From Coriobacteriales bacterium (GTDB lineage: Bacteria; Actinomycetota; Coriobacteriia; Coriobacteriales; UBA8131), in the NCBI GenBank assembly GCA_031288185.1, contig JAITRZ010000016.1, positions 1 through 51,050 of the forward strand: DNA of 51,050 nt. Direction: 5' to 3'. Made by a program: the position numbers and the translations under genes. The notes under the pieces are model-generated. The model saw only the letters and a program-made list of their open reading frames with translations, searched no databases and had not been told where the DNA came from. Positions 3 through 20,842 of this stretch are shown piece by piece; the first letter of the stretch is position 1; the number at the start of each line of letters is the position of its first letter.

Positions 3-3000
3 CCCCTTGAGGCCCTGCCCGGAGAAAGCATCGAGTTTCCCTTGCCCGTTCCCGAACCCGATGTGGCCGCCTTCGGCTTTTCTGGCTGGTATAAGGACAC
101 CGAGGCCACGACACCGTGGAACTTTGAATCCGACACCGTGCCTCCCTATAGCATCGTCCTGTACGCCGGCTGGAGCTTTGAAGGCTACCAGGTGAGCTTT
201 GACCTCAACGGGCGCACCGATGTTGAAAACGCCCCGGCTGCGGCGCGCACGAACGCCGGCGAGAAAATACATGCTCCCGACCCTGCGCCGAGCGCGGCCG
301 GTCTTTTCTTTGGTGGCTGGTTTAAGGACAAGGCGTGCACGGCAGGCCAGGAGTGGGACTTTGCTGTTGAGACCATGCCAGCGGCCGACCTTGTGCTGTA
401 CGCCAAGTGGGAGGTTTTGAGCTTTACGGTCACCTTTGACCTGAACGGGCAGCCTACCGCCTCGCCGGTACCTTTGCCGCTTTCGGTTGCCTATGGCGCG
501 ACCGTTGTCGCGCCTTCACCCGCGCCGTTGGTGGCAAACTTCACCTTTCTTGGTTGGTATCGCGACGCGGCCTGTACGCAGAAGTGGAGTTTTCTTACCG
601 ACACCATGCCCGGTGAGAACCTAACTTTGTATGCCGGCTGGCGCGATAAGAGTTTTGTGCAGGTGACCTTTAACATGAACGGCCATGGCACGGCGGTGCC
701 GGCCCAGTGGGTGGTGCCTGCGTCTGCCGTCTCGCGCCCCAACCCCGAGCCCGTGACGGAGGGTTGGGCCTTTGGCGGCTGGTTTAAGGACAAGGCCTGT
801 ACGGCGGGGCAGGAATGGGCCTTTGCCGGCGAACTTTCTCCCACCCTCGTGCCCGCTGGCGGCGCGAGCATCTATGCCAAGTGGGAGCCTGTGTCCCGCG
901 CGGTCACCTTTGACCTCAACGGCCAGCCTGGTGCTTTGCCGGCACCTGCGCCGCAGTCTGGCCTTGCGTACGGATCGCTTGTCACCGAGCCGTGGCCCGC
1001 TCCCAGCGTGGCCGGCCAGGTGTTTGACGGCTGGTATGGCGATGCGGCCTGCACACCTTCCACACGCTGGGATTTCGCGACCGACACGATGCCGGATGGC
1101 AACCTTGTGCTCTATGCCGGCTGGCACGCAAGTGACTCTTTTAAGCTGCTGTTTAACCCAAATCTGCCTGCAGGTGCTGCCTTAAGCGAGCCGGTGCCGC
1201 CTTCTCAGTGGGTGGCCCCCGGTGCCCGTGCGACCGCCCCCGCCGTGACCCCCGCCGCAGCCGGCTACGCGTTTGAGGGCTGGTATCGCGACGCTTCTGG
1301 CACGCAGGCGTGGAACTTTGCGACCGATAAGGTGACGGGGACAACGACGCTTTACGCGAAGTGGCGCGCCGTACCCTGCACGGTGTCTTTTTCCACCGGC
1401 GATCACGGCACTCCCCCCTCATCCATTGCTCTGAGCCCTGGCGCGCTTGTTCCTAAACCAAACGATCCTCAAGCCCCTGGCTGGGTGTTTGGCGGCTGGT
1501 ATGGCGACGGGGGCTTTTCTCCGGATACGCGCTGGGATTTCGCGACCGACACCGTGCCTGCGGCCTCAGAGCTGAGCCTGTATGCCCTGTGGTACAAGGA
1601 GGGTAGCTTTGAGGTGGCCTTTGACCTCAATGCGGGATCTGGTGATTTTGGCGGTGATGCCGCAGAGCTTGTGACCCCCGCCTCGCTGTGGCTTGTGCCC
1701 GGCTCCTGGGTCTCTGAGCCGGTTGTTGCCGCTACGGGTTGGCGTGTTGCGGGCTGGTATCGCGACGCTTCTGGCACGCAGGCGTGGGATTTTGTGAACG
1801 ACACGACCCCACCAGACCCCGGCGGGCGCCTTGTGCTTTTCGCGAAGTGGGAGGCACAAGACTATGAGGTGAGCTATGAGGCAGGTGCGCACGGAACCGC
1901 TCCTGAGCCTGAGCTTGTGACCTATGGCGCTTTTCTTCCCGACAATCGCGTCCCCACGCCCGATTCGTCGGATTGGGTGTTTGGTTTTTGGTATAAGGAT
2001 GTTTCCCTAAAGCAGCGCTGGCATTTTGACACTGATGCCATGCCTGCGCACAACCTCACCCTGTATGCCTCCTGGCACACGAGCGCCGCTCACCTCGCCA
2101 GCTTTGATACCAACGGACACGGAAGCACCCCCGATGAGGTATGGGTTGAGCCGGGTGCCTGGCTTGATGAACCTGAGCCCGGGCCGGCCGAGGAGGGATA
2201 TCGTTTTGGCGGCTGGTTCAAGGATGCCGCTTGTACGCCGGGACAGCAATGGGATTTTGCGGCTGACACCATGCCAGCTGGTGCCGACCTTAAGCTGTAC
2301 GCCAAGTGGATCCCTGTGGAGGTAACGGTGAGTTTTGATGGCAACGGGCGGGGTGGCTCTTTGCCTGAGGCGCGCCGGGCCTCCTTTGCCTCTCTGCTGG
2401 TTGAGCCTCCCGCCCCGAGCCAGTACGGGTATGTCTTTACTGGCTGGTACACTGACGAGTTGTGCTCTGAGGGCTCGCGCTGGGACTTCGCTGCCAACAC
2501 GGTACCTGCCCATGCCCTCACGTTGTACGCCGGTTGGGAAGTTGGCACGTGGACGGTTGACTTTAACGCCAATGGTCATGGGAGTGCTCCGCCTTCTGTG
2601 CAGGTATCATTTGGCGAGCTCGTACCTGAGCCCGCCGCACCTTCTGTCACCGGTTGGCATTTTACGGGCTGGTATAAGGATGCTGCCTGTACGCCTTCTG
2701 CGCGTTGGAACTTTACAACCGATATGATGCTCGGACAGAAGCTCACGTTGTACGCCGGTTGGGTTAGTGTGTCGCCTACACCGACACCGGTGCCCGTGCC
2801 GCCTACACCGACACCGGTGCCCGTGCCGCCCACTCCGACACCGGTGCCCGCCCCATCCCCGATTACGCCGGCACCTGACGACAGCTCTGACGACCGTTCT
2901 GACGCCCGTTCTGACGACAGCGGATCTGGTGGGAAGGACGATACTCTTGGCGGTACCGACGACGATAAGGATAGGCCCTCCAGCGCCGATGGCATGGAGG

Positions 3001-3290
3001 CCACGTGGGCGCTTATAAACGTCATGCTGGTGCTCATTGGCCTGGGTAGCGTGCTGGCTGCTACTGGCGAGGCTTTTGTGCGCCGCGAGAAACCGCGCTA
3101 TCACAGGGCAACGCTTGTCGCGGCTGGAGCGGTCGCCGTCGCCTCGGTCGTGCTGTTCTTTGTTCTTGAACCCTTTGCCGGGCACCTTGTCTTACTCAAT
3201 GCCCACACGGTGCTGTTTGCCCTCCTGTTGGCTGCCGAGATCACCCTCCTCGTCTTCTCTCGTCACTCCAGCAGGATAAAGCCCCGCTGA
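3..3290 (+). CDS. InlB/Listeria-Bacteroides repeat surface protein, 5' truncated by window edge
   Basis: The frame is open to the left edge, so this is the C-terminal part of a larger protein; the TTG at 42 is only an internal codon. The visible part consists of about 12 tandem units of roughly 75-90 residues, each with V-x-F-D-x-N-G near its start, GWY/GWF-KD in the middle, W-x-F-x-T-D-x-MP and a closing LYAGW or LYAKW. This is the InlB B-repeat (Flg_new, PF09479) pattern of secreted adhesin-like proteins. After the repeats come three Pro-Thr-Pro-Val units (about 2775-2870), an Asp/Ser-rich spacer and three hydrophobic segments (about 3004-3270) ending in a basic tail. There is no LPXTG motif, so the protein is probably held by its C-terminal membrane segments with the repeats outside the cell. 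The N-terminal domain and the ligand are unknown. Confidence 0.9.
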   Translation, partial: PLEALPGESIEFPLPVPEPDVAAFGFSGWYKDTEATTPWNFESDTVPPYSIVLYAGWSFEGYQVSFDLNGRTDVENAPAAARTNAGEKIHAPDPAPSAAGLFFGGWFKDKACTAGQEWDFAVETMPAADLVLYAKWEVLSFTVTFDLNGQPTASPVPLPLSVAYGATVVAPSPAPLVANFTFLGWYRDAACTQKWSFLTDTMPGENLTLYAGWRDKSFVQVTFNMNGHGTAVPAQWVVPASAVSRPNPEPVTEGWAFGGWFKDKACTAGQEWAFAGELSPTLVPAGGASIYAKWEPVSRAVTFDLNGQPGALPAPAPQSGLAYGSLVTEPWPAPSVAGQVFDGWYGDAACTPSTRWDFATDTMPDGNLVLYAGWHASDSFKLLFNPNLPAGAALSEPVPPSQWVAPGARATAPAVTPAAAGYAFEGWYRDASGTQAWNFATDKVTGTTTLYAKWRAVPCTVSFSTGDHGTPPSSIALSPGALVPKPNDPQAPGWVFGGWYGDGGFSPDTRWDFATDTVPAASELSLYALWYKEGSFEVAFDLNAGSGDFGGDAAELVTPASLWLVPGSWVSEPVVAATGWRVAGWYRDASGTQAWDFVNDTTPPDPGGRLVLFAKWEAQDYEVSYEAGAHGTAPEPELVTYGAFLPDNRVPTPDSSDWVFGFWYKDVSLKQRWHFDTDAMPAHNLTLYASWHTSAAHLASFDTNGHGSTPDEVWVEPGAWLDEPEPGPAEEGYRFGGWFKDAACTPGQQWDFAADTMPAGADLKLYAKWIPVEVTVSFDGNGRGGSLPEARRASFASLLVEPPAPSQYGYVFTGWYTDELCSEGSRWDFAANTVPAHALTLYAGWEVGTWTVDFNANGHGSAPPSVQVSFGELVPEPAAPSVTGWHFTGWYKDAACTPSARWNFTTDMMLGQKLTLYAGWVSVSPTPTPVPVPPTPTPVPVPPTPTPVPAPSPITPAPDDSSDDRSDARSDDSGSGGKDDTLGGTDDDKDRPSSADGMEATWALINVMLVLIGLGSVLAATGEAFVRREKPRYHRATLVAAGAVAVASVVLFFVLEPFAGHLVLLNAHTVLFALLLAAEITLLVFSRHSSRIKPR

Positions 3291-16186: not shown

Positions 16187-16648
16187 TTAGTTGTTGTCCT
16201 TGCGCCGGTTATGTCGTTGGCAAGAAAACAGCCAAAACCGTAGAAACAGCATACTGACGAAGGTACCAAGCACGCCGCCGCCCAGGTCGCACAACCAGTC
16301 CACGACATCACTGGAGCGATAGGGAACAAACAGCTGGTGCAACTCGTCACTGGCGGCATAAACCGCCACGATGATAATAGTTATCATCGCCAGCTTCCAG
16401 GTATCGGCTTTGCCGTTGTAGAGAGCCGTATGAATAAGCGCCGCCAAAATCAAATACTCGCCGCCGTGGGCCACATAGTTCAAAAAGCCAGGGTGAGCTG
16501 GATAGTTCTGGCCCGAAATGCCGGAAAGCACAAAAATCAGCGCCGCCCAAAGCAGAGCCAGGACAAGAGCAGCCAGTCGTAGTTTTGCAGGGAGTTTTTG
16601 AGTTGAGGTCTTAGGGGCCATCGCATACTTCTGTCTTATGGGTAGCAC
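16187..16648 (-). CDS. VanZ-like membrane protein
   Basis: A protein of 153 residues with four hydrophobic segments. The sequence SDELHQLFVPYRSSDVVDW is the VanZ family hallmark (DE-x-HQ-x-F-x-P-x-R...D-x-D). VanZ-family proteins are linked to low-level teicoplanin or lipoglycopeptide resistance, but most genomic copies have no tested role. The GTG at 16648 is chosen because CAGGAG lies five bases upstream; a methionine nine residues later lacks such a site. The gene is convergent with the ABC exporter and has no operon partner. Confidence 0.85.
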   Translation of the reverse strand: MLPIRQKYAMAPKTSTQKLPAKLRLAALVLALLWAALIFVLSGISGQNYPAHPGFLNYVAHGGEYLILAALIHTALYNGKADTWKLAMITIIIVAVYAASDELHQLFVPYRSSDVVDWLCDLGGGVLGTFVSMLFLRFWLFSCQRHNRRKDNN

Positions 16649-16784: not shown

Positions 16785-16861
<77 letters not shown>

Positions 16862-16970
16862 AGTCTTTTTGGTTCGCACGCCTGTCGGCGGAATGACACA
16901 GCGGTGGCAAGCCACCGCAGCCTGCTTACGCAGGCCGGATTTGAGGTCGCAAATTCGCACGTCCCGACCA
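16862..16970. repeat. Hairpin-rich segment bounded by a duplicated tRNA 3' end
   Basis: The last nine bases of the tRNA, TCCCGACCA (16853-16861), recur at 16962-16970. Between them lie a hairpin with an 8-bp perfect stem (GCGGTGGC-AA-GCCACCGC, about 16901-16918) and another with a 6-bp stem (GCCTGC-TTAC-GCAGGC, about 16920-16935). TTCGCACG also occurs twice. No protein is encoded. A 109-base duplication of a tRNA end fits a remnant of an integrated element or a small hairpin transposable element. Confidence 0.6.
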
Positions 16971-17223: not shown

Positions 17224-18120
17224 TTATGCGCGTTTAGGCAGGGATGCGTTTGCCTGATTTTGCAAGCGCTCAAGAAGGACATAAAAGCCCAGCCTCTCCA
17301 GCTCGCCCTGCAGCCTTTCCACACTCAAAGCCTTAGTCATATCCGCCTTGACGTTTAGTTTAATGGGCGCATCCGTGCGAAATGTGGCCAACGTACGCGA
17401 AATGCGGGCCAACTCATGGCCAGCTTTCAGCTTGGTCTGCCAGGCCGGCTTGATCGCTTCGAGATGAGTGAAAATTTCCTCCAGGCTGCCGTATTTTTGC
17501 AGCAGGGTCGCAGCTGTCTTTGCGCCGATACCGGGCACTCCGGGAATAGTACGACCACTGTCGCCCACCAATGCTCTAAAGTCTATAAGTTGGTGGATGG
17601 AGATGCCATACTTTTGCTCAAAGGCAGCGATATCGTATTGCTCAATGTCCATAAAACCGCGCTTGATGGTAAACAGCTTTGTGTGAGGGTCAACCAGCTG
17701 AAGCATATCCAGCTCCACCGATAAAAGCAGTGACTGCGCACCCACCGTTTCAGCCTGTCTGGCCAGTGTCGCCATGATGTCCGTCGCCTCGTAGTCATCC
17801 AGTTCATACAGTGGCCACTGTAAGGCCGACAAAAACTCACGAAGCAACGGGACTTGAGCGTAAAACTCCGGTGGTGCTGGCTTGCGTCTGGTCTTGTAAG
17901 GGGGATAAATCGCTTGGCGCCAGCGCACATTAGTTTTTGGTTTGTCCCAGGCTACAACAACGTAATCAGGCTGGAGCTTATCTAGCAACTCCAGTGCAAA
18001 ACTGGAAAAGCCGTACACACCGCCAGCCGGTTGACCATCGGCTGTTTTAAGCCAGGGCATGGCATAAAAGCCACGATAGAAGATATTTTTGCCATCAATC
18101 AGGGCGAGTCGCTTAAACAT
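17224..18120 (-). CDS. 5'-3' exonuclease/FEN-like protein with altered metal-binding residues
   Basis: A stand-alone protein of 298 residues that follows the N-terminal 5'-nuclease domain of PolA along its length: LALIDG near residue 6, the arch-region YPPYKTRR near 75, the helix-hairpin-helix GVPGIGAKTAATLLQKYGS near 200. Several carboxylates that hold the two metals in Taq/T5-type enzymes are changed. EADD reads EATD, GDKDLLQL reads VELDMLQL, and GDSSDNIPG reads GDSGRTIPG. The first Asp, the WD of the second motif and the Glu of EATD remain. It is probably a paralogue with weak, changed or no nuclease activity that still binds branched DNA. No ribosome site is obvious before the ATG at 18120, and there are no operon partners. 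Confidence 0.75.
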   Translation of the reverse strand: MFKRLALIDGKNIFYRGFYAMPWLKTADGQPAGGVYGFSSFALELLDKLQPDYVVVAWDKPKTNVRWRQAIYPPYKTRRKPAPPEFYAQVPLLREFLSALQWPLYELDDYEATDIMATLARQAETVGAQSLLLSVELDMLQLVDPHTKLFTIKRGFMDIEQYDIAAFEQKYGISIHQLIDFRALVGDSGRTIPGVPGIGAKTAATLLQKYGSLEEIFTHLEAIKPAWQTKLKAGHELARISRTLATFRTDAPIKLNVKADMTKALSVERLQGELERLGFYVLLERLQNQANASLPKRA

Positions 18121-18529: not shown

Positions 18530-18662
18530 GGCCCCTCGCACAGGGGACGCCGGCTCAAACACTCTGCGGCCTCGTCGCCTCGGTAGTTCTACCTCTCTTG
18601 CAACCCCTCAGCAGGGCTCCTCGGTCTGCGGAACTCACCGGACGCCCCCTGTGCGAGGGGCC
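18530..18662. repeat. 17-bp perfect inverted repeat, arms about 100 bp apart, overlapping the prepilin start
   Basis: GGCCCCTCGCACAGGGG (18530-18546) is repeated as its exact reverse complement at 18646-18662. The 99 bases between hold smaller hairpins such as GGTAG-TT-CTACC. The right arm contains the GTG at 18651, the only start codon available to the prepilin gene. A folded RNA would bury that codon in the stem. The repeat might also be a recombination or insertion element boundary. Confidence 0.8.
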
Positions 18663-19304
18663 TTCCACAATCCACCAAAAATACACAAACAAACTAACAC
18701 TACCGGCTTTACCCTCGTCGAGCTGATAGTAGTTATTGTTATCTTAGGTATCCTGCTCGCTATCGCCATACCTGCTCTTACCGGATACATACAAAAGGCA
18801 CAGGATGAGGAATGGAAGATGAAGGCCAGAGACGCTGCGCAGGCAGCTCGCACGGTCTTGGATGAGGCGTACACGAAGGGTGAGCTCACCTCATCAACCA
18901 CCTACCCCAATATATCTGACTACATCCAAAATGGGGAATCAGGCTATCAGACCAAAGTGTTCAATGTGCGGGGCATCTCATATCGCGCTGAGGGCGACCT
19001 TGTCTCCTATCTTCGCATCGCCTCCGTCTTGATGGGAAAGACTTATCCGGTCACCTACGGCGACCCTGGAACTTGGGACTTCTGGATCATCGGCTCCGAC
19101 ACCTCTACTGCGCTGGATGCCGATGGATTTGTCTATTACTTCTGTCCGGACGGCAACAAACCCAACTATCCATATATTGTGGTGACCTATCGGATGTTAC
19201 GGGTTAATGGAGCCGTCACCCAAAATGACATCTACACAGCGCTACAAACTTCCCCTCTCTACAGCGCTGAGGCGGGCTATGAGGTATATCACATAATTCT
19301 ATAA
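18651..19304 (+). CDS. Type IV prepilin-like protein
   Basis: A protein of 217 residues with a class III signal: a short basic leader ending in G, then FTLVELIVVIVILGILLAI, the prepilin peptidase site and N-terminal helix of type IV pilins and pseudopilins, with Glu at +5. The rest is a globular region rich in Tyr, Thr and Asp with one Cys. No ATG precedes the cleavage site. The GTG at 18651 is the only start and lies in the right arm of the inverted repeat, with no Shine-Dalgarno site, so the gene may have lost its own start or be a silent or recombining cassette. No assembly genes (pilB, pilC, pilD) are nearby. Confidence 0.8.
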   Translation: MRGAFHNPPKIHKQTNTTGFTLVELIVVIVILGILLAIAIPALTGYIQKAQDEEWKMKARDAAQAARTVLDEAYTKGELTSSTTYPNISDYIQNGESGYQTKVFNVRGISYRAEGDLVSYLRIASVLMGKTYPVTYGDPGTWDFWIIGSDTSTALDADGFVYYFCPDGNKPNYPYIVVTYRMLRVNGAVTQNDIYTALQTSPLYSAEAGYEVYHIIL

Positions 19305-19601
19305 GTTACCTGCGTCAGACCCAGGCGCGCATGTGAGTACCTTGAGCGCCTGGTGCCGGGAAAGGCGCAACAGAACGCGCGGACAATTTGCGTGATGCGC
19401 GCGGACACCTTACAGGGTGGTGTGCGAACGAGTCTCTGAACCGTCGGACAATTTGCGTGATGCGTGCAAGCACCTTAGCATTATTCTTTTTTATACCCTA
19501 TATAGGAAAACGTTAGTATCTGCAGAAGGGATTTTAGGTGAGCAATCAAACCGCAGGAGACAGCCATAAAATCTCTGCCACAAAAACCACTTGAAAACAT
19601 C
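19305..19601. repeat. Gap after prepilin gene: hairpin and 33-bp direct repeat
   Basis: A hairpin with an 8-bp perfect stem (CCAGGCGC 19321-19328 with GCGCCTGG 19346-19353) follows the prepilin stop but lacks a T-run. GGACAATTTGCGTGATGCG starts at 19381 and again at 19446, and the likeness extends to about 33 bp (ending CACCTTA). Its reverse complement resembles the CACACAAATTTCCGG part of the elements at 18304 and 50903. No gene is visible. Confidence 0.7.
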
Positions 19602-19636: not shown

Positions 19637-20524
19637 TTGTTCAGAATAAAATCTGACAAACGCAAAAACTGTTGGCCCTCTTCGGAACGCGGTGTGGTTA
19701 GCCACTCGGCCGCGCGAGTGCTCGTAGAGGGCTTGGGCAGGGCCGAATCCTCTGGACGATTCGTGCTTTTGCGGATGTGGCGAAGGTGGCAAAGACCGGC
19801 GTTTGCTCAATTGAGCCTGATGCATACGGTTGATTGCACCGCTGGATTGCAAGCCCTCCTTCCTTGCGATATGCCTCCTTCGCCCGGGGTCAGGTATACT
19901 TTCTTGCTCCTCGTTAAGCGCAGCCTTTCTGTTCAACGCGATCTTCAGGCGTTGGCCCCCTTCCCGTCACTCGCGCGCAGTAATGCGTACAGTAAAACAC
20001 AGCCTTCAGGCGCTGGTTTTCTCGCGCAGGCCAACAAATGCGCGCAGCATTTGGGACTCGCCAGCATCACGGTGGATACAGGGTTCCTCTCGCGCAGGCC
20101 GTCAACGTGTGCGGATGCGTCAAGGCCCAGCTCCATCAGGTAGGCGTAGATGTGTTTCTCGCGCGCAGGCCGCTAATGTGTGCGGGCCACTTTATCCGTA
20201 GGGAGGAAATCGAGACTACAATCTTCGGAGGCAGGCCGTCAACGTGTGCGGGCCACTTTATCCCCCCACCTTAAGCGGGTTCATAAGCAGGATTCCTCTT
20301 GAGTCCCCTTTGCGCTCTTGCCGCAAGACAACAGACGCAAAGAGTGGTAACCTATCTGCCTGCTCGTCCGGGGTGAACGCCAGGCTGGTTCTGGCCTTCG
20401 TTCCGGACAAGAGCAGCCGGTTCACTGATTGGCGTGGAGTTTCCACGGTTGTGGCCGGGCTAAGCCACCGATGCTGCGGCCGATTTGTATGCAGCATCGC
20501 GTGTTGAAAGATCTAGGAGGTAGC
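19637..20524 (+). other. Non-coding stretch with hairpins and degenerate 66-71-bp-spaced repeats
   Basis: Open frames here have no recognisable protein features. The 5' part can fold: CCCTCT (19676-19681) with AGAGGG (about 19727-19732) encloses CACTCG/CGAGTG, and CGAATC/GATTCG follows near 19752. GCAGGCC recurs at 20026, 20094, 20165 and 20231, inside a unit ending GTGTGCGGGCCACTTTATCC in the last two copies. The unit is about 35 bp and decays towards the left. It resembles the multiple terminal repeats of IS21-type elements more than a CRISPR array. The last 260 bases before tatA presumably hold its promoter. Confidence 0.5.
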
Positions 20525-20842
20525 ATGAGAGTATTTGGTATGGGAATGCCAGAGCTGATTATCATCTTGTTGGTGATTCTGATTATCTTTGGCCCAAAGA
20601 ATCTGCCAAAACTAGGTTCGGCGCTGGGACGTGCCGTTAAAGGTGTGCGTGAGGGTGTTGAGGGTGTCAGCGATGAGTTGGAAGGCGCCACCGATACCGG
20701 CGCTGCCGGCTCGCCGTCTAAGCCGCGTGCTGCGGTTACCGCCACAGCAACGGTGGAAGATATGGATGATTCCGGTTTTAACCCCGTGGATGCCGCAACG
20801 GGTGGTAAGCGCAAGAAGTCTGCCAAGGCTAGTAAGCACTAA
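20525..20842 (+). CDS. tatA: Twin-arginine translocase component TatA/TatE
   Basis: A protein of 105 residues. A short periplasmic start (MRVFGMGMPEL) leads into one membrane helix, then FGPKNLPKLGSALGRAVK, the conserved hinge and amphipathic helix of TatA. A charged, low-complexity tail of about 55 residues ends in a Lys-rich stretch. TatA oligomers form the pore for folded proteins carrying RR signal peptides. The ATG at 20525 has AGGAGGT four bases upstream; the longer frame from 20429 has no such support. No tatC lies in the window. The terminator-like hairpin before greA probably ends this transcript. Confidence 0.95.
   Translation: MRVFGMGMPELIIILLVILIIFGPKNLPKLGSALGRAVKGVREGVEGVSDELEGATDTGAAGSPSKPRAAVTATATVEDMDDSGFNPVDAATGGKRKKSAKASKH

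Follow-up and report, generated by a model that had tools for sequence, protein, structure and literature searches.

A stand-alone 5'-nuclease domain of saccharibacterial PolA type with altered metal ligands in a Coriobacteriales genome

A Coriobacteriales genome encodes a stand-alone 5'-nuclease (FEN) domain protein of 298 residues whose closest relatives are the N-terminal domains of DNA polymerase I (PolA) of Candidatus Saccharibacteria, and in which three metal-binding aspartates are replaced. Judged from sequence, there is about an even chance that the gene is a laterally acquired saccharibacterial PolA flap-nuclease domain that has been kept as a folded DNA-binding protein and is catalytically dead. 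The FEN fold itself is ordinary, but its pattern of ligands is unusual, and so is a saccharibacterial source for a gene of another lineage. Positions refer to the window, the whole stretch of 51,050 nucleotides that was analysed.

Results

An intact FEN gene with three changed ligands

The gene and its altered codons were placed as follows, the codons by PDB alignments and by the available part of PMC3783174.

17224..18120, minus strand: free-standing FEN (5'-nuclease) domain of 298 aa, of the saccharibacterial PolA type (open reading frame, Pfam and tree)
17782..17784, minus strand: codon for T113, which replaces the Cat1 Asp (T5 Asp130, ExoIX Asp104)
17713..17715, minus strand: codon for E136, which replaces the Cat1 Asp located where Cat1 and Cat2 meet (T5 Asp153)
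17551..17553, minus strand: codon for R190, which replaces a Cat2 Asp (T5 Asp204)

The reading frame is intact, starts with ATG and encodes a 5'-nuclease/H3TH protein. The Pfam domains 5_3_exonuc_N (5.8e-43) and 5_3_exonuc (9.8e-27) were both found, and PF02739 and PF01367 scored 146.9 and 93.7 bits against cut-offs of 34.3 and 40. An AlphaFold2 model built on a 41-row alignment had a mean pLDDT of 91.8 and a pTM of 0.89. Its best solved neighbour was a plastid exonuclease (Z 28.7, 3.0 A), followed by Escherichia coli ExoIX (VIA-align Z 28.3, 1.7 A over 247 residues), which was also the top Foldseek match among solved structures, and Mycobacterium smegmatis FenA (Z 27.2, 3.0 A); the Taq and T5 FENs came next. 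The initial annotation had held that the fold motifs and the HhH are kept, and the domains, the model and the retained H3TH glycines all agree with it.

The protein fell outside the named families that we compared. It is not a DNA polymerase I, as its frame stops at 298 aa without a polymerase domain and NCBIfam TIGR00593 gave 256.2 bits against a cut-off of 600. When the window was searched by tblastn with four saccharibacterial PolA proteins, no polymerase part was found; two short matches lay elsewhere (E 0.68 and 0.84). The Xni model NF007017 gave 161.3 against a cut-off of 261, and the stand-alone 5'-3' exonuclease types of PRK14976 all stayed below their cut-offs (196.6/305, 142.6/434 and 141.5/347 bits). 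Ahead of the ATG there is no Shine-Dalgarno-like stretch, and terminator and promoter scans showed no excess over shuffled sequences.

According to the available part of PMC3783174, Cat1 of T5 FEN consists of Asp26, Asp68, Glu128, Asp130 and Asp153, and Cat2 of Asp155, Asp201 and Asp204. We counted the corresponding positions by hand on phmmer alignments to ExoIX and M. smegmatis FenA, together with the T5/ExoIX equivalences in that part of the paper. On this count the 298-aa protein has D9, D59, E111, T113 and E136 at Cat1, with two of the five residues changed (Asp130 to Thr113 and Asp153 to Glu136), and D138, D187 and R190 at Cat2. Six of nine motif carboxylates are kept (D9, D59, E111, D114, D138 and D187), as are Y75, R79 and K76, the conserved lysine that is Lys67 in ExoIX. 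The altered motifs read E-A-T113-D, V-E136-L-D138 and G-D187-S-G-R190-T, as first noted, and this is not the pattern of Xni/ExoIX, in which Cat1 is kept and Cat2 lost: here Cat1 is changed and Cat2 keeps Asp138 and Asp187. The ligand residues were inspected in 110 loci of saccharibacterial type, 89 of them distinct, made up of the best 80 of 213 relatives and 30 loci from a class search, and in eight further loci; 22 of 149 rows were removed as identical before counting. Aspartate stands at all three changed sites in 126 of 126 distinct rows, 89 saccharibacterial-type and 37 from the host order. The changes are therefore private to one genome as far as seen. The initial annotation had named homologues with normal residues, pointing to decay in one strain, as its refutation, and this case is borne out in part: the residues are normal in all rows compared, which would fit adaptation as well as early decay.

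Kinship with saccharibacterial PolA

A scan of genome contigs gave 213 relatives, the best 80 of which were PolA N-termini of Ca. Saccharibacteria type at 50-56% identity; none of these 80 exceeded 56%. Frames of at least 700 aa from the start of the match were present in 74 of the best 80, five more ran off the locus and one stopped at 686. DNA_pol_A was found in all ten saccharibacterial-type relatives scanned, in one of them partly. Nineteen of the best 80 carry titles without Saccharibacteria (14 'bacterium', three Nomurabacteria, one Patescibacteria and one Chloroflexi). Those retained grouped with the saccharibacterial rows in a quick tree, and one Nomurabacteria-titled genome (L041, G399) falls in the same class as the Saccharibacteria genomes. 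Searched across this class, at least 356 of 392 genomes match the gene at E<=1e-60. Short or second frames in six of the genomes, at eight loci, proved to be five at contig ends and three long frames, and the Asp ligands are kept at all eight. One genome of the class, G710, has two long PolA-type frames, of 824 and 788 aa, and the Asp ligands are canonical in each:

C17:90056-90907: PolA-type frame of G710, locus L187
C4:24824-25708: PolA-type frame of G710, locus L189

A careful tree was built from 42 rows picked by hand (34 of the 89 saccharibacterial-type rows and seven of the 37 from the host order), with host-order PolA as the only outgroup. The branch that joins the gene with saccharibacterial PolA was supported at 100/100, and 0% of 200 bootstrap trees separated the 34 saccharibacterial rows from the gene. 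The gene thus groups with the saccharibacterial PolA 5'-nuclease lineage, apart from host-order PolA. Its place inside that lineage is unsure: the forks that nest it within the group are weak (83/48 and 84/73), its end branch measures 1.85 against a median of 0.34, and the quick tree, in which the joint group had an SH-aLRT of 100, put the gene at the group's base with a long-branch warning. The long branch, the weak forks and the differing quick tree leave the donor unsure as well. A long end branch fits both a new function and relaxed constraint.

The host's own PolA was found elsewhere in the genome, as the initial annotation had suggested checking; it is complete (1006 aa) with canonical motifs. 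It shares 31-33% identity with the 298-aa protein and falls with the PolA rows of its order. The earlier label of paralogue is thus misleading, given the 50-56% identity to saccharibacterial domains, and we rejected duplication of the host PolA as the origin.

In the host order, nine of 395 genomes match at E<=1e-58, namely the gene and eight long frames at 37-38% identity; none of the remaining 394 genomes gave an ortholog at this threshold, at which a much more diverged one would be missed. A sample of the phylum gave three of 396 at E<=1e-64, the gene and two long frames at 39-41% identity, and this limit too would pass over a strongly diverged ortholog. When the threshold was relaxed to E<=1e-10, 55 of 59 relatives matched, with one match each, and a genome of the same genus (88% complete) had a PolA match only. 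Viral contigs yielded four pattern stretches and no relative of the gene. Among the matches listed, 15 of 268 phage and 10 of 293 plasmid records, identity was 32-37%, and it was below 60% for all records; we rejected a phage or plasmid gene.

Genomic setting

The gene lies in an interval with the following features.

16187..16648, minus strand: VanZ-like gene, left syntenic flank
16785..16861, plus strand: tRNA-Pro (CGG)
16950..16970, plus strand: 21-nt stretch with 76% identity to the 3' end of the tRNA-Pro (repeat family D5)
18530..18662, no strand given: copy of a dispersed element of the host genome, 20-nt ends 95% complementary
18651-19304: ORF resembling a pilin gene, with a methylation motif at the N-terminus of its product
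19373-19477 and 20020-20263: direct repeats, all short, in the stretch from the pilin-like gene to tat (two copies of 40 nt, three of 33 nt and three of 18 nt)
20429..20842, plus strand: TatA-like gene, right syntenic flank

The stretch from vanZ to tat in the window thus holds tRNA-Pro(CGG), the nuclease gene and the pilin-like gene. Downstream of the TatA-like gene follow greA, lysS, clpC and disA, read from their translations. The order abc-vanZ-(gene)-tat-greA-lysS is matched in another genome, G010, in which the interval contains an unrelated 299-aa ORF and no nuclease gene. Two further genomes of the order (G035 and G040; loci L135 and L136) likewise have the tRNA-Pro upstream of tat, so it probably marks the ancestral interval that holds the gene. 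The same-genus genome has a 34% identical copy of the pilin-like ORF near tat (L131 15134-15787). In G001 the contig ends just past the pilin-like gene, about where the window has its dispersed-element copy; vanZ is on another contig there, followed by Fur-like and AhpC-like genes read from translations.

The dispersed element is about 135 bp long and has 44 matches in the 1.8-Mb genome, itself and partial pieces counted. Twelve of the 44 begin within 500 bases of a contig's start, and the element may therefore be what breaks the assembly; it could be a MITE-like element or a regulatory palindrome. The copy in the window lies 410 bp upstream of the gene's start. The 21-nt stretch could be the remnant of an old attachment site, a weak match that chance may explain. 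The initial annotation placed the gene next to tRNA, IS and repeat remnants: the tRNA and the repeat are there, and six small ORFs tested near the gene gave no transposase family, so that the IS remnant is not confirmed.

A ribosomal protein operon and secY were read from translations on the contig, with L2 and L3 confirmed, and its lysS shares 73% identity with the lysS of the same-genus genome; judged by its genes, the contig belongs to the host. Compared with protein chains, L3 scored best, behind a single chain of unknown source, with mycobacterial and cutibacterial ones by a clear margin, ClpC did the same narrowly (998.5 against 990 bits) and L2 favoured no group, which would fit an actinobacterial order. 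The gene's codon usage (-1.145) lies among that of 16 host genes (-1.07 to -1.33). Seven saccharibacterial PolA genes scored -1.05 to -1.26 on host codon usage, and because some of them already fit, codon usage cannot date a transfer. At 42-3290 the window also has a 1082-aa ORF with InlB B-repeat-like units (read from the translation), a proline-rich stretch and a hydrophobic C-terminal part; it resembles a surface protein built of repeats and may begin outside the window.

Divergence and constraint

The gene departs from saccharibacterial PolA at 11 of 80 near-invariant sites (S12N, T32A, I65V, D113T, S135V, D136E, L179I, K182R, S189G, D190R and N191T), which exceeds chance: for single saccharibacterial-type rows set against the others, the median is 0 and the maximum 6. 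These changes cluster at the active site, with seven of 23 motif sites against four of 57 others (P = 0.011, for motif ranges set after the data were seen). For the ligand sites alone, three of nine, the enrichment was not significant (P = 0.10). The four changes outside the motifs are T/A, I/V, L/I and K/R; all have BLOSUM62 scores >= 0, compared with 47% of simulated neutral changes, a weak point given four changes only.

Mismatch to the saccharibacterial consensus fell from 76 through 61 and 38 to 14% between the most variable and the near-invariant columns, and from 65% to 0.2% for the average saccharibacterial row over the same classes. The gene's excess mismatch is about 32% at columns conserved at 80-98% and about 14% at near-invariant ones. 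Were all of the excess neutral, it should be alike in the two classes. There is no indel relative to the majority of saccharibacterial rows before residue 298. In a neutral simulation, 242 of 2,000 runs that reached 11 near-invariant changes were free of stops, and the open frame counts only mildly against drift.

Discussion

We propose that the 5'-nuclease domain of a Ca. Saccharibacteria-type PolA entered this genome without its polymerase part, at a point between tRNA-Pro(CGG) and the tat-greA-lysS block, and may have diverged there as a stand-alone protein. As the fold, the arch Tyr/Lys/Arg and the H3TH are kept, recognition and binding of forked or 5'-flapped DNA should be preserved. As in other FENs, the H3TH and the arch would grip and bend DNA with a 5' flap or a nick, and the scissile phosphate would then point at a site unable to hold the Cat1 metals properly. 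With Thr113 and Glu136 in place of Cat1 aspartates and Arg190 at Cat2, it is most likely nuclease-dead. Arg190, beside Asp138 and Asp187, may balance the charge at the Cat2 metal site and so stand in for a cation. Uncut, bound flaps might be shielded from host PolA or competed for beside it. A laboratory precedent for such shielding is a dominant-negative Site 1 mutant of Bacillus subtilis FenA, E114Q,D116N, which shows no noticeable 5'-flap activity, complements poorly and acts in a dominant-negative way when rnhC is missing; the authors of that work offer the speculation that substrate binding persists. D116 of that protein is the position of T113, and D192 that of R190. The fullest version of the proposal, in which an episymbiotic saccharibacterium passed the domain to the type of bacterium that carries such cells and a nuclease-dead FEN now binds flaps independently of metal, with Arg190 replacing the Cat2 metal, and protects or marks 5' flaps, we consider unlikely as a whole.

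The serious rival is early decay: a transferred PolA fragment that never had a function here or has recently lost it, with the active site going first while the frame is still open. We hold this to be possible, though less likely than a retained binding protein. Its case draws on a gene present in one of 395 genomes of the order at E<=1e-58 and absent from the 88% complete same-genus genome, on the missing ribosome-binding stretch and the long branch, and on the simulated runs that kept an open frame by chance; against it stand the graded conservation and the lack of indels despite much divergence, and, more weakly, the four mild changes outside the motifs. Several observations temper the reading of a retained binding protein. 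As one genome only carries the gene, any selection on the changed ligands is conjectural. The long end branch, the weak nesting forks and the basal placement in the quick tree weaken that reading further, as do the lack of a Shine-Dalgarno-like stretch, a promoter scan at chance level, the P value of the ligand sites alone and the tolerance of FenA to D192N, at the R190 position.

That tolerance also speaks for an active nuclease with altered metal use, either at a Cat1 formed by Asp9, Asp59, Glu111, Asp114 and Glu136 or with one metal on Asp138 and Asp187: FenA with D192N alone cuts flaps and does not disturb the living cell, the protein here keeps K76 and six of nine motif carboxylates, and ExoIX functions with a reduced ligand set, as the available part of PMC3783174 describes. 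That text also states that ExoIX keeps Cat1 without the three Cat2 Asp, that Asp104 is the sole carboxylate directly coordinating Mg in ExoIX, and that Cat1 is essential and sufficient for flap cleavage by T5 FEN. ExoIX thus retains the very Cat1 residues that are changed here, and one-site chemistry of the ExoIX kind, which the initial annotation offered beside a binding protein, fits poorly; we disfavour it, and of its two suggestions binding is the likelier on the sequence evidence. The FenA Site 1 mutant points the same way. In M. smegmatis FenA the counterparts of T113 and R190 are D125 and D208, and that of the retained D138 is D148; the D125N and D208N mutants are reportedly nuclease-dead. 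Activity therefore seems improbable. We think it very improbable that a piece of a saccharibacterial genome was joined into the contig by assembly or binning, for all that the assembly is in 73 contigs and that searches of the order gave the gene, which is close to another phylum, in this genome alone. The genes on either side belong to the host and follow an arrangement shared with G010, a copy of the host's dispersed element lies just upstream and the window lacks a saccharibacterial polymerase part; moreover, as the 89 distinct saccharibacterial-type rows all have canonical ligands and the identities found stop at 56%, no known organism supplies such a piece.

If the gene is a retained, nuclease-dead flap binder, it would be a test case for the usefulness of flap binding without cutting in bacteria. 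It would also be an instance of gene flow from Saccharibacteria to another phylum, which we take to be that of their known hosts. Saccharibacteria are described, in the available part of PMC9040727, as obligate episymbionts that grow on host bacteria. Among the titles listed in searches of open-licence literature, none dealt with a natural FEN that has lost the Mg-contacting Cat1 residue or with saccharibacterial gene flow into another phylum.

Compared with known systems, the protein is closest to the 5'-nuclease domain of Ca. Saccharibacteria PolA, with which it shares 50-56% identity, the AWDKPKTN, YK..R and H3TH motifs and the absence of a majority indel. It differs in that the saccharibacterial domain is fused to a polymerase (10 of 10 scanned; 74 of the best 80 frames >= 700 aa) and has complete ligands in 89 of 89 distinct rows. 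M. smegmatis FenA structures 6c33-6c36 (D125N, D148N and D208N) have the same fold (Z 27), but are laboratory mutants at 27-28% identity. B. subtilis FenA (YpcP) is likewise a stand-alone FEN, and its Site 1 mutant changes the Asp of T113 and a Glu that is kept here, whereas the natural enzyme has all eight carboxylates. E. coli ExoIX (Xni) resembles this protein as a free-standing bacterial FEN that lacks part of the ligand set and occurs together with a normal PolA; judging by the available part of PMC3783174, its Cat1 is intact and the three Cat2 Asp are gone, whereas here Cat1 is hit (Asp130 and Asp153) and Cat2 keeps two of three. Descriptions of stand-alone bacterial FENs give either full sites, as for B. 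subtilis FenA, or the loss of Cat2, as for ExoIX. A natural FEN without the Mg-contact residue of Cat1 would, if our reading is true, be the mirror case of ExoIX.
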